A stretch of DNA of 64,000 nt. Origin: a bacterium (lineage in GTDB: Bacteria; Cyanobacteriota; Vampirovibrionia; Gastranaerophilales; Gastranaerophilaceae). The stretch is from NCBI GenBank assembly GCA_017559905.1, contig JAFYQF010000015.1, positions 1-64,000 of the forward strand, in the 5' to 3' direction. The notes below the pieces were generated by a model that made no database searches, had not been told where the DNA came from, and worked only from the letters and a program-made list of their open reading frames with translations. The translations under genes and the position numbers were made by a program. This document shows, in pieces, positions 28,911 through 32,896 of the stretch. Within the stretch, counting starts at the first letter, position 1; every line of letters begins with the position of its first letter.

Positions 28911-29834
28911 TTACAAGTAATTTTTCAATGTGTTATCAATTAAATTAATCATTCTCTCTTTGATGTGTTTTGGTGAAACGACTCTGCAGTTTGTGTTGTA
29001 TCTCATTAATCTAGTTAATAAAGAATCAATGTTTTCGTTAGAATTAATTATTGTTAGCCAGCCTTCATTATCAATTTTGCCATCGGAAATTTCGCCTTCT
29101 TTAAGCTGATAGGATTTTGCAAGAGTACCTTTGATTTGGAATACAACTGTAGCTGGGAAGTGATTGGATTGAGAAATTGTTGGGAGTTGTTTTATTTCTC
29201 TTATTCTATCAAATGGAATTTCGAAAGTTTGTCTGCTAATGTGGTTGTATGCTGAAAAATAGGCTTTCCCATTTGAATAATTTATCTCATTTGGGGTGCA
29301 AATTACTTTGTGGGTTTTGTTGCCGACAGAAAAGCTAACTTCTAATTTGGAGTTTGTAGAGGAGTTATTTTCGCAAATTTCTATTAGCTCTTTGTGTTTA
29401 GCAATATAATTTTCTAATTCATTTTTATCAATTAGTTCATCTTTTTCTAAAAGTTCTCTTGTGGAATTTGTTAATCGCAATTCAATTTCATTTAGAAAAT
29501 TATTGAATTCAGCTTTTTGTTTTTTGTTTGTTATTTTTGATGAATAATTTTTTAATTTTTTCAAAAGTTCTATTTCACTTTTAGAAAAATCAATAGAAAA
29601 AAAAGAGTTTTGTAGGTAATAAATGTTTTTTGTTTTATACACATTTATTCCGAAGATTTTCAATGTATTTAGATATTTATTGAGTATAACAGGTGCAGTT
29701 GCGCCTGCACTCAAGTCTTCGTTATCAAATAGTTTTATCATATCGTTATAATGTGCTGAACCCTTTGACAAAAGTTTTAACATATCAAATATTTTTAAGC
29801 ATGCTTCGTTGTATTTTTCACTTAATTTTTTCAT
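28911..29834 (-). CDS. WYL-domain transcriptional regulator, second of a tandem pair
   Basis: 307 residues. The N-terminal 70 residues look like a winged-helix (KIFDMLKLLSKGSAHYNDMI). The C-terminal half is a WYL-type ligand-sensing domain with NGKAYFSAYNHISRQTFEIP and IREIKQLP, and a terminal WCX-like extension (TRLMRYNTNCRVVSPKHIKE). WYL regulators bind DNA and respond to nucleic-acid or nucleotide ligands. The start codon lies 1 nt beyond the stop of the upstream WYL gene, so the two are translationally coupled and may form a heterodimer (as in PafBC), which is inference. No obvious target operon is adjacent. Confidence 0.78.
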   Translation of the reverse strand: MKKLSEKYNEACLKIFDMLKLLSKGSAHYNDMIKLFDNEDLSAGATAPVILNKYLNTLKIFGINVYKTKNIYYLQNSFFSIDFSKSEIELLKKLKNYSSKITNKKQKAEFNNFLNEIELRLTNSTRELLEKDELIDKNELENYIAKHKELIEICENNSSTNSKLEVSFSVGNKTHKVICTPNEINYSNGKAYFSAYNHISRQTFEIPFDRIREIKQLPTISQSNHFPATVVFQIKGTLAKSYQLKEGEISDGKIDNEGWLTIINSNENIDSLLTRLMRYNTNCRVVSPKHIKERMINLIDNTLKNYL

Positions 29835-29835
29835 G

Positions 29836-30768
29836 TTAGTACCCTGCTCTCATTTCTTTTAGTGTTTCAATAATTTCTGCTCTGAAATTTTTGGGTTCGA
29901 TAACAGTGCACGCACTACCAAAAGATAAAATTCTTTGAATTAGCATAAATTTGTTTGAGTGGCATGCTTCTATTGTTGTTTTTGAATCTTCTGTAGATAA
30001 TAACTTTTCGTATTCTTTGAGTTGTAATTCTAAAGAGTTTGCTTTAATTTCATACTTTATTTTTATGTCTTCAATAATAATGTTTTCATCTTTTATTAAT
30101 TTAATTTCGTTAATACATATAATCCTATAAATAGATAAGTAAGTTGCTTGTTTATAGTTTAAGCTAGTGCCGTATAGATAAAGTTTCCCGTTTTCAAAAC
30201 CGATTTTGTCACAAATAATTTCTAAAACTTTTTTCTGTGAACGTGGAGAATTATATGTTAATGAAATTTGATTTTTTCGTCTGCAACATGCCAGCAAATC
30301 TTCTAATAAATTTAGATTTATTCCTGAAATGATTGATATATTATTTAGTGTATCAGCAAGTTTTGGGTTGTTTATGTTATTAGATATGTTTCTCAAAAAT
30401 TTTTCAAACAAAACCAATTCTGTAATATCTAAAGTTTTTGCTATTGCTTTGTAAGCTTTTGATAATGCTAGAATTTGTTCGTCGTTAATTGTTAGTTCAA
30501 ATGGGTGTGATTGCAGTACAAATTTTGAACCTTCAGCTCGTTTTGTTTTTGTAATGATACATCCAGCTCTTTTTAAAGAGTTTATATAAACTCTAATAGT
30601 ATCTATTGAGATTTTTTCGTTTATAAAATCGTGGTTTTGAAAATAATTTATAATATCTTCGTACGAACGAGGGGCTTCAATTAATAATGAAAAAATTAAT
30701 AAAGTTTTGAAGGCTGTAAATGACATTAAATTGTATGTAACTTTGTTGTTTTTTATAAATTCTTTCAT
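29836..30768 (-). CDS. WYL-domain transcriptional regulator, first of a tandem pair
   Basis: 310 residues from ATG 30768 (AGGA about 10 nt upstream); a longer frame from a TTG at 30801 lacks support. The N-terminal winged-helix region reads LIFSLLIEAPRSYEDIINYF followed by ISIDTIRVYINSLKRAGCII, a recognition-helix pattern. The C-terminal WYL domain contains NGKLYLYGTSLNYKQATYLS and ICINEIKLIK, with a terminal segment SFGSACTVIEPKNFRAEI that parallels the partner's C-terminus. It reads away from anmK across a 612-bp gap containing two palindromes. Autoregulation through one of them is plausible. Confidence 0.78.
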   Translation of the reverse strand: MKEFIKNNKVTYNLMSFTAFKTLLIFSLLIEAPRSYEDIINYFQNHDFINEKISIDTIRVYINSLKRAGCIITKTKRAEGSKFVLQSHPFELTINDEQILALSKAYKAIAKTLDITELVLFEKFLRNISNNINNPKLADTLNNISIISGINLNLLEDLLACCRRKNQISLTYNSPRSQKKVLEIICDKIGFENGKLYLYGTSLNYKQATYLSIYRIICINEIKLIKDENIIIEDIKIKYEIKANSLELQLKEYEKLLSTEDSKTTIEACHSNKFMLIQRILSFGSACTVIEPKNFRAEIIETLKEMRAGY

Positions 30769-30819
30769 TGAAGTTTGTCCTAAAATCGTGTGATAGTGCA
30801 AGTTTTACTTAAAAATAAT

Positions 30820-30827: not shown

Positions 30828-30995
30828 GTTTTTTCTAAAACTTTTTTTAATATAATTTTAAGTTGTCAACAAAAATTTGGCAGAAAATTTACGTAAATAT
30901 ATTAAATTTTCTTCATTAAGATTTAAGAAGTTGAATTTTTGTTGATTAATACAAGGGGCATGGTCAATTGTAAAAATTATTTAAAAAAATGTTAC

Positions 30996-31024
30996 TTGTC
31001 AAACTTTTAACTTAAAGTTACATT
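30996..31024 (+). promoter_or_regulatory. Predicted promoter with a palindrome filling its spacer
   Basis: TTGTCA (30996-31001), a 17-bp spacer, TACATT (31019-31024). The spacer holds TAACTTAAAGTTA (31008-31020), a perfect palindrome around a central A, nested in a wider AACTTT...AAAGTT repeat. A transcript would begin near 31031, at the start of the purine-rich tract. Confidence 0.45.
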
Positions 31025-31030
31025 AAAAGA

Positions 31031-31345
31031 GTGGACAGGGAAGAGTTCACAAAAGGAAAAAAAGAAAGAGAAGTAATTGATTTAATAGTACGACTACCGG
31101 ATGAGATAACTGGAGGAAGCTTAAGAAATTAGGCAGCGGGAATAGTTAGTAAGGACAGTAAGAAAAAGAGGTGATGGCAAAAAGTCCTATTGAGGTGTTA
31201 AGACTGGAAAAGAAAAAGATTAGGGATATTGTTTTTTTAGATTAAAAATTGGGACGATTGAGAGATTTAAGAATAGTTGATAGAAGTTTTAGAGTAGAGA
31301 TTTGTGGTTTTGAGACAGATTGTATTGTAACTGATGGTTTATAAT
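31031..31345 (+). other. Purine-rich, cytosine-poor tract without an intact gene
   Basis: Bases 31141-31320 contain only about seven cytosines against many guanines, a skew not seen in neighbouring genes. Three protein-like fragments can be read in two frames: 31031-31132 from a GTG, 31174 onward from ATGGCA with GAGGTG just before it, and a continuation in that second frame to about 31344 past a TAA. Each is interrupted by stops, so a decayed gene is possible. An unstructured or regulatory RNA is the alternative. I see no match to 6S, tmRNA or RNase P RNA. Confidence 0.4.
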
Positions 31346-31380
31346 TTGCGAAGTTGTTAAACTTATTATAAAATTATTAA

Positions 31381-32511
31381 ATGATAGATTTAGAATCAAA
31401 AAAGATAATAGCGTTAATGTCCGGAACATCTTGTGATAGTATAGATGCCGGTCTTTGTGTTGTTAATCCTGATATGAGTTGTGAACTGATTCAAGGGATT
31501 AATTACAAATATCCTGAACACATCCAATCGAAATTGTTTCAGTTATTCAATGGTGAAGCTTCTATAAAAGATTTGTGTCAGATGAATTTTGCTGTTGGTA
31601 AGTGTTTTGCTGATGCCGCTAATATTTTGATATCAGAACATGGTAAACCTGATTTTATTTCAAGTCATGGACAGACAATATACCATTTCCCGTTTAATGA
31701 AAAATTAGATGGTATATCTTTAAAAAGTACTTTACAAATTGGTGAAAGTTCTGTTATCGCAAGAGAAACTAAATGTTTAACAATTTCAAATTTTAGAGAA
31801 TCTGATATAGCAAATGGTGGTGAGGGTGCTCCTCTTGTTTGTTTTGCTGATGAAAAATGGTTTAAGCCTTATAAGAAAAATTTCTGTATACAGAATATTG
31901 GCGGGATTTCAAATGTAACAGTTGTATCAAGAGAAAATGCAACTTTTGGGTTTGATACTGGTCCTGGCAATATGATGATTGACTACTGTATGCGTAAATT
32001 CTTCTCTCAACCTTTTGATAAGGATGGAGAAGTTGCAAACAAAGGTACTATTTCTGAAAGCTGGTTAGAATGTCTATTGCAAGATGAATATTATTTTAAA
32101 AATCCTCCGAAAACTACAGGCAGGGAATATTTTTCTTCAGATTATGTTGAGAACGCTCTACGTTTTGCGCCAAAAGATTATAATGACATAATAGCTACTT
32201 TGACTGCGCTTACAGCAAAATCTATTGCTCAAGCTTATGAAAGGTTTGTATACCCTGATATTGATATAAATGAAGTCGTTGTTGGTGGCGGAGGAGCTTA
32301 CAACCCAACTTTAATGAAATATTTACGACATTACTTGCCAAAACATGTGGATTTAAAAACACATGAGGCTTATGGAATTTCAAATAATTTTAAAGAAGTA
32401 ATGGCGTTTGCGCTTTTGGGATACTGTAATTACTATAATATTCCGAATAACCTGCCAGAATGTACTGGTGCAAATAGCCGTGTTGTGCTAGGTAAAGTTA
32501 CTAATTGCTAA
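31381..32511 (+). CDS. anmK: Anhydro-N-acetylmuramic acid kinase
   Basis: 376 residues, normal family length. AnmK opens the 1,6-anhydro ring of anhydro-N-acetylmuramic acid and phosphorylates it in peptidoglycan recycling. Signature stretches are ALMSGTSCDSIDAGLC (canonical MSGTSxDgxD), ISSHGQTIYHFP, QNIGGISNVTVV, FDTGPGNMMIDYCM and EVVVGGGGAYNPTLM. A TATAAA box (31367-31372) ends 8 nt before the ATG and there is no Shine-Dalgarno, so translation may be leaderless. It fits with DacB and GatD elsewhere in the window as part of wall turnover. Confidence 0.95.
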   Translation: MIDLESKKIIALMSGTSCDSIDAGLCVVNPDMSCELIQGINYKYPEHIQSKLFQLFNGEASIKDLCQMNFAVGKCFADAANILISEHGKPDFISSHGQTIYHFPFNEKLDGISLKSTLQIGESSVIARETKCLTISNFRESDIANGGEGAPLVCFADEKWFKPYKKNFCIQNIGGISNVTVVSRENATFGFDTGPGNMMIDYCMRKFFSQPFDKDGEVANKGTISESWLECLLQDEYYFKNPPKTTGREYFSSDYVENALRFAPKDYNDIIATLTALTAKSIAQAYERFVYPDIDINEVVVGGGGAYNPTLMKYLRHYLPKHVDLKTHEAYGISNNFKEVMAFALLGYCNYYNIPNNLPECTGANSRVVLGKVTNC

Positions 32512-32644: not shown

Positions 32645-32896
32645 ATGATTAATGGTATTACCCCAAACAAAATTAACAAAGCTTTGGAATTCGTTTCTGC
32701 TAGTTCAAATTTAAAAGGTACTGTAAATGAAATTAAAGCAAACAGAATGATGAGAGATGTTCAGTTTGTTTGCGATAGAGATACTTTTGCAGGTAGAGTT
32801 GCATCTTTCAAGATTGCAAAATCACCTATTGAAATGGTTAAAGCAGCTCCTAAAGCAGATATCGTTCCAGAAGATAGCATCAACTATATTTGCTAA
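32645..32896 (+). CDS. Small hypothetical protein, 83 aa
   Basis: Family not recognised. It begins MINGITPNKINKALEFVSAS and ends SINYIC. It is mostly helical with two internal cysteines' worth of spacing (FVCDRD and the terminal Cys) and has no signal peptide. Strong translation signals precede it: AAGGAG 6-7 nt before the ATG, and a TATAAT at 32589-32594 giving a leader of about 45 nt. That suggests a genuinely expressed gene. It stands alone between anmK and the convergent nnrD, 5 bp away. Confidence 0.7.
   Translation: MINGITPNKINKALEFVSASSNLKGTVNEIKANRMMRDVQFVCDRDTFAGRVASFKIAKSPIEMVKAAPKADIVPEDSINYIC

Follow-up and report, generated by a model that had tools for sequence, protein, structure and literature searches.

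Within a 64,000-nucleotide window from a member of the Gastranaerophilaceae (the window being the whole stretch of DNA analysed here), the intergenic space between a divergent minus-strand regulator gene and the plus-strand gene anmK raises the question of what kind of sequence can be so poor in C. A first-pass annotation had described this tract as strand-asymmetric and had offered three options, namely a decayed gene, a long purine-rich RNA that cannot fold on itself, or recently acquired DNA. The asymmetry is confirmed: positions 31141-31320 hold 7 C against 49 G, with 70 A and 54 T (GC skew 0.75), a 180-base stretch whose strand asymmetry is the strongest in the window. All 45 of the 180-base windows with an absolute skew at or above this level start within 31135-31217, the next separate skew peak across the 64 kb reaches 0.61, and purine content, scored over windows of 180 bases, peaks at a fraction of 0.733 in the one starting at 31037. 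As far as sequence comparison can carry the point, it is nearly certain that the tract is a small RNA element that has been conserved and that matches nothing in Rfam release 15; a poorly studied gut lineage related to cyanobacteria thereby gains an RNA that these models do not recognise.

Distribution and composition of the element

A DNA search of 59 genomes (G000 included) matched the element at E 4e-13 or better in G000-G012, i.e., in 13 of the 14 genomes of the genus, and more weakly in other genera. The same two neighbours occur in the same arrangement at twelve matched loci plus G007, and 13 of the 14 genus genomes have the element flanked by anmK on one side and by a divergent WYL-type regulator on the other. 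The genus alignment combines a highly conserved promoter region and short conserved boxes with indels that are not multiples of three, and these boxes, non-triplet indels, and shared neighbours together argue against both a shared protein and a recent acquisition. The comparison of the locus in sister strains that had been proposed as a check was run, and it returned conserved motifs and the same neighbours without a shared coding frame.

Across the family, a first covariance model (R1) matched 29 of 146 genomes, or 26 after removal of false matches; the matches at L035, L044, and L045 were judged false, with neither a WYL gene nor anmK alongside. The 17-base pattern GAAANNGAGGTGATGGC was found in 96 of 383 genomes of the order Gastranaerophilales, all in one family and distributed over 13 genera, as a single copy per genome, while its reversed control gave one match and the 22 genomes sampled from other families gave none. 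Given its presence in 13 of 14 genus genomes and in 13 genera of the family, the option of recently acquired DNA was rejected. Among named genomes, 80 of the 85 stretches with an 18-base pattern were read, of which 56 were judged real (upstream element or second motif present) and 24 not. The real loci carry titles such as Candidatus Gastranaerophilales, Scatousia, Melainabacteria, uncultured bacterium, and cyanobacterium; the 24 others sit in other groups, including one Leptolyngbyaceae cyanobacterium. A phage origin was also considered and discarded, as the two IMG/VR matches to the 18-base pattern both lack the promoter and the second motif. Finally, a search with the WYL protein in 30 genomes, drawn for the most part from genera or genomes that lack the pattern, found it in 27. 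Upstream of this gene, neither element nor box was present in 24 of the 27, both were present in L080 and L082, and only the promoter was present in L081.

The compositional bias extends to the relatives: C content across 103 non-redundant relatives averages 7.0% with a maximum of 11.7%, and the mean composition of the RNA is 39 percent A, 7 percent C, 26 percent G, and 28 percent T (RNA ends being set, for composition and folding, at the last TAGTT-type motif or at a fixed length). Judged from these relatives, C-poverty is itself a conserved trait of the element.

Promoter, stems, and motifs of the predicted RNA

The earlier prediction of a promoter before the tract holds, with a sigma-70-like site that is conserved in relatives (Table 1). 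The scan taken alone is weak because it returned six promoter-like sites in place of the 2.5 expected in shuffles. Together with the conserved upstream elements, the site nonetheless points, on the basis of consensus and conservation, to an independent small RNA gene. The start assigned to the tract in the first-pass annotation (31031) coincides with the first base of the 5' hairpin, seven bases past the -10 box. Upstream of the promoter, CTTCATTAAGATTTAAGAA and GCATGGTCAATTGTAA each have one exact copy in the 1.84 Mb genome, and a pattern of the first element (up to three mismatches) was found in 31 of 38 family genomes that had been chosen for lacking an exact 17-base box pattern. A role of these elements as a regulon-wide operator was rejected, their near matches (5 and 3) only modestly outnumbering those of the control (3 and 2).

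Table 1 Features of the locus, in window coordinates
Feature	Position	Strand	Basis or conservation
Second tandem WYL-like gene	28911-29834	-	WCX 17.1 bits, below cut-off 23.9
Divergent WYL/WCX-type regulator, first of tandem pair	29836-30771	-	PF25583 WCX 29.9 bits, cut-off 23.9
Upstream elements CTTCATTAAGATTTAAGAA (30911-30929) and GCATGGTCAATTGTAA (30958-30973)	30911-30973	+	Strong genus-wide conservation
Sigma-70-like promoter of the RNA, TTGTCA-17-TACATT	30996-31024	+	Similar sequence at same place in relatives
5' hairpin P1 (31031-31036 with 31045-31050)	31031-31050	+	Partner changes across relatives
Box GACTACCGGA, RRYURYCRGA-type	31092-31101	+	Related 10-mers upstream of loop in relatives
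Hairpin P4 (31152-31156 with 31184-31188), conserved box in loop	31152-31188	+	Partner permutation
Conserved loop GAAAAAGAGGTGATGGC	31162-31178	+	Core GAGGTGATGG at 31168-31177
Micro-ORF from box ATG, 23 codons plus stop	31174-31245	+	Predicted frame, putative translation
Motif GATTAGGGATATTG	31218-31231	+	TTAGGG[AG] 3' of box in relatives
Motif AATAGTTG toward 3' end	31272-31279	+	TAGTTG-type motif in relatives
Separate anmK promoter-like site, TTGCGA-17-TAAAAT, just 5' of ATG (31381)	31346-31374	+	Similar site by eye in genus alignment
anmK, anhydro-N-acetylmuramic acid kinase	31381-32511	+	PF03702, 312 bits

Single-sequence and alignment-based consensus folds gave no stable common full-length fold. 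Since MAFFT placed one arm of P4 wrongly, the two local stems were tested by partner permutation instead. For P1, whose stem partners change between relatives in the genus alignment (e.g., GTGGAC/GTTCAC and TGTAATC/GATTACA), the native mean across 77 sequences was 10.64 compared to 8.89 after permutation; for P4, tested in those 90 of the 103 relatives whose box is preceded by 40 nt or more, it was 11.47 compared to 10.27. None of 200 permutations reached the native value in either case, with the caveat that the gain from covariation is modest and that sequence relatedness inflates permutation tests. Combined with the indels that are not in threes, these results indicate conservation as an RNA and not as a protein. 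The purine-rich RNA option of the first-pass annotation was therefore right in kind, given the conserved motifs, the two permutation-supported stems, and the conserved lack of C, but the statement that such an RNA cannot fold on itself was too strong.

Around these stems, the element consists of short motifs at variable spacing. Downstream of the box, TTAGGG[AG] is present in 97 of 103 relatives compared to 6 of 103 shuffled sequences, and a TAGTTG-type motif is found in 66 compared to 7. The RRYURYCRGA-type box may pair, when considered by eye, with a downstream UAGYY or with the loop GGUG. Terminator-like sites downstream of the box were found in 59 of 103 relatives by a criterion of our own applied without a shuffle control, and none was found in the window copy; where such a site is present, the copy is roughly 90 to 350 bases long when measured to that site. 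The shortest copies, which lack P1, P4, and the RRYURYCRGA-type box, retain the conserved box, the UUAGGG-type motif, usually the UAGUUG-type motif, and the terminator, and longer copies add the 5' hairpin and the hairpin that displays the box as its loop. Two loci depart from this organization. At L016:1406-1605, the interval from P4 to the UUAGGGAU motif includes additional sequence that by eye resembles an inserted hairpin. At L081 (G032), the upstream element and promoter are kept, and about 130 bases on lies a short replacement RNA without the Shine-Dalgarno-start box, ending in a hairpin followed by T.

A Shine-Dalgarno-like box with short reading frames

The most conserved part of the element is a box of the form GAGGUG-AUG-G[C/U], in which a Shine-Dalgarno-like sequence merges directly into a start codon. 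Its consensus, GAGGTGATGGC, is conserved by construction in the 73 relatives selected through the box, and independent tests come only from 30 loci selected through the promoter and from the WYL-selected loci L080-L082, among which L081 lacks the box while keeping the promoter. All 30 promoter-selected loci match GAGGTGATGGC within one mismatch. Neither GAGGTG nor the TGG that comes after the A varies at any of the 30; the sole change in the first ten bases converts ATG to GTG, another start codon, at one locus; C (21 loci) or T (9 loci) occupies the eleventh position; and the bases 5' of GAGG are merely A/G-rich.

The assembly that contains the window did not yield the 3' end of its 16S rRNA, and the tail of the same-genus genome G004, GGATCACCTCCTTTCT, was used instead. 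The consensus box is predicted to form a duplex of -15.0 kcal/mol with this tail, with eight contiguous pairs and possibly five more past a small bulge, and it is the best 18-base match to the tail within the RNA in 72 of the 73 box-selected relatives. In the window, positions 31156-31176 reach -15.3 kcal/mol, a small lead over the best two (-14.2 and -14.1) of 48 uncurated ORF leaders of the 64-kb window, whose median is about -6.4. Among the promoter-selected loci, only GAGGUGAU is reliably complementary to the tail, the additional AGAAA not being conserved. The pairing overlaps the AU of AUG, nearer to the start codon than is usual where initiation is productive. The GG that comes next after GAU has no partner in the tail, hence pairing cannot account for all of the conservation.

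Reading frames that begin at the box ATG are mostly very short. Their median length is 5 codons across the 103 relatives; 84 have frames of at most 10 codons and 31 of just two, and long frames also exist, with 23 codons in the window copy and 36 in L029. A stop within two codons past ATGGNN occurs in frame in 45 of 103 relatives, compared to 3 and 8 in the other frames, and in 23 of 58 compared to 2 and 7 when a single sequence is taken per cluster. Part of this excess may be owed to codon 3, whose second base is a conserved A (27 of 30 promoter-selected loci), and with a frame as long as 23 codons in the window, translation of the micro-ORF accordingly stays a prediction. The frame continues into anmK in L203, and in L204 a two-codon frame lies shortly 5' of anmK. 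Outside the family, 11 of 26 unrelated matches to the same 18-mer (two viral ones included) run for at least 100 codons from the ATG, compared to 2 and 4 in the other frames.

In folding calculations, the box has a mean unpaired probability of 0.56, which falls to 0.25 when half of the flanking G are changed to C in silico. Other parts of these RNAs are only slightly less open than the box (0.49), and the value for the box with shuffled flanks is also 0.49, indicating that the openness of the box is mainly due to composition. The C shortage that keeps the box open in these calculations suggests a possible simple purpose, which is that G-rich motifs remain free. The composition bias also makes testable a rarely considered idea, that the absence of one base is selected to keep sites on an RNA single-stranded.

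Taken together, these features suggest a working model, which we place slightly short of an even chance: the RNA would act through ribosome engagement at a micro-ORF, and its lack of C would keep it open. A small RNA gene with its own promoter beside a WYL regulator would produce a transcript whose purine-rich motifs stay mostly single-stranded owing to the low C content, and which would display the Shine-Dalgarno/start module, within a hairpin loop in the longer copies. 30S subunits would bind this module and start the micro-ORF, in many relatives stopping after two to four codons. The RNA might thereby hold or titrate initiating ribosomes under a condition sensed via the promoter or, alternatively, the engagement might set the fate of the RNA itself. 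Transcription, ribosome binding, translation, WYL control, and physiological purpose are all points that we infer here. If ribosome engagement is true, the main conserved part of this RNA would be a ribosome-binding site with almost nothing to translate.

Neighbouring genes and alternative readings

The regulator gene lies upstream of the RNA in 101 of the 103 relatives. Its predicted model (pLDDT 84.4, pTM 0.62) has PafBC (E 1.0e-09) and DriD (2.8e-09) as best Foldseek matches, and these matches along with the WCX score assign the neighbour to the WYL/WCX transcription-factor fold. The query-normalised TM-scores are low (0.25 for PafBC and 0.39 for DriD), which could be explained by turned domains in the predicted model. 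Two WYL-like genes stand in tandem here, as do pafB and pafC. In the excerpts of two published studies, PafBC is described as activated by single-stranded DNA (PMC11804915) and RspWYL1 as binding single-stranded RNA (PMC6547453), which makes contact between the RNA and the WYL protein worth testing; a small RNA partner of PafBC or WYL1 is not mentioned in those same excerpts, and to that extent the locus differs from them. The odds are well against the fuller scheme in which a free-standing, ribosome-capturing RNA is switched by the PafBC-like neighbour and possibly serves as its single-stranded ligand.

A protein-binding sponge is an unlikely alternative to ribosome engagement. Under this explanation, repeated purine-rich single-stranded motifs (UUAGGGAU, GGAUAGUUG, and GAGGUGAUGG) would bind one protein, possibly the WYL neighbour, and several features fit: the UUAGGG[AG] and UAGUUG-type motifs recur at variable spacing, UUAGGGAU appears twice in four relatives, the WYL gene nearly always adjoins, and relatives of its product bind single-stranded nucleic acid according to the excerpts cited above. 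However, the most conserved part is the Shine-Dalgarno-start box, which is single per genome by the 17-base pattern, and in L064, L066, and L067 (L066 lying outside the set of 103) the box and anmK are both present and the 1506 upstream bases contain no WYL gene.

CsrA is the classic owner of such sponge RNAs. It was not found in the genome (best score 12.6 bits, cut-off 27), which sets the element apart from CsrB/RsmY-type RNAs despite a shared free-standing, purine-rich architecture with short motifs and variable length; moreover, one Shine-Dalgarno-start module dominates here, as opposed to the many GGA loops of those RNAs.

That the box serves purely as an anti-Shine-Dalgarno decoy, pairing with the 16S 3' tail to block initiation while the RNA stays untranslated, is quite unlikely. 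The strength of the predicted duplex and the unpaired state of the box are what such a decoy would require, yet the invariant core extends two bases beyond the pairing and the extra five pairs are not conserved in the promoter-selected loci. The variation that preserves the start codon and the early in-frame stops also favour translation, as in the ribosome-engagement model. The closest parallel to the latter is found in minigenes such as lambda bar, which likewise present a ribosome-binding site, a start codon, and, as in many of the relatives here, an almost immediate stop; unlike them, the predicted frames of this element range from two to tens of codons and are set inside a conserved small RNA element.

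Proximity to anmK invites a further interpretation, distinctly improbable in our assessment, in which the RNA would form the beginning of the anmK message and regulate it in cis as a leader or attenuator. The distance from the RNA start to a downstream anmK is 700 bases at most in 92 of 103 relatives, the RNA runs on into the gene with no terminator seen in L064-L066, and the box frame of L203 enters it. Against this, terminator-like sites follow the box in over half of the relatives (by the same uncontrolled criterion), a separate promoter-like site immediately precedes the anmK ATG, and at 11 of 103 loci anmK is absent from the 700 bases considered, two of these loci being cut off too early by the end of the contig or locus for a judgement.

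A decayed protein gene has next to no chance of being correct and was rejected: relatives share no longer frame and their indels are not in threes, and none of the 103 carries an intact homologue through the stops or a frame shared past the first codons from the box ATG, except L203 where the frame leads into anmK. The two peptide-like fragments that had suggested a decayed gene are both readable in the window copy, and one, SPIEVLRLEKKKIRDIVFLD, is part of the 23-codon frame from ATG 31174, but they are not shared by relatives, whose indels break the frame of the first string.

Searches for known RNAs returned no family for the element. At gathering score, Rfam models matched only a tRNA elsewhere in the window, and at permissive thresholds the window stretch and 11 relatives gave only matches far under that score. 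6S RNA (RF00013) is also a small RNA of similar length, but the element gives no match to its model. Identity with 6S RNA was rejected, a separate candidate lying elsewhere: G000:C14:109058-109231, possibly a divergent 6S RNA, scores 33.7 bits, under the family cut-off of 46.4, as do half of the control genomes with a 6S match. The open literature on RNA in Gastranaerophilales or Melainabacteria, on anti-Shine-Dalgarno decoys, on minigenes, and on WYL proteins with small RNA or single-stranded DNA held no description of the element in the portions available.

Three further observations concern the surrounding genes. The second tandem WYL-like gene (28911-29834) weakly matches TIGR03985, a CRISPR-associated family, at 16.6 bits, far under the cut-off of 60. 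Downstream of anmK, an 83-aa ORF on the plus strand (32645-32896) has no Pfam or NCBIfam match at E 0.01. In L032, L043, L116, and L140, the anmK promoter (TTGNNN-17/18-TATTAT) seems by eye to share sequence with the RNA terminator, and anmK at these four loci seems to lack a leader.
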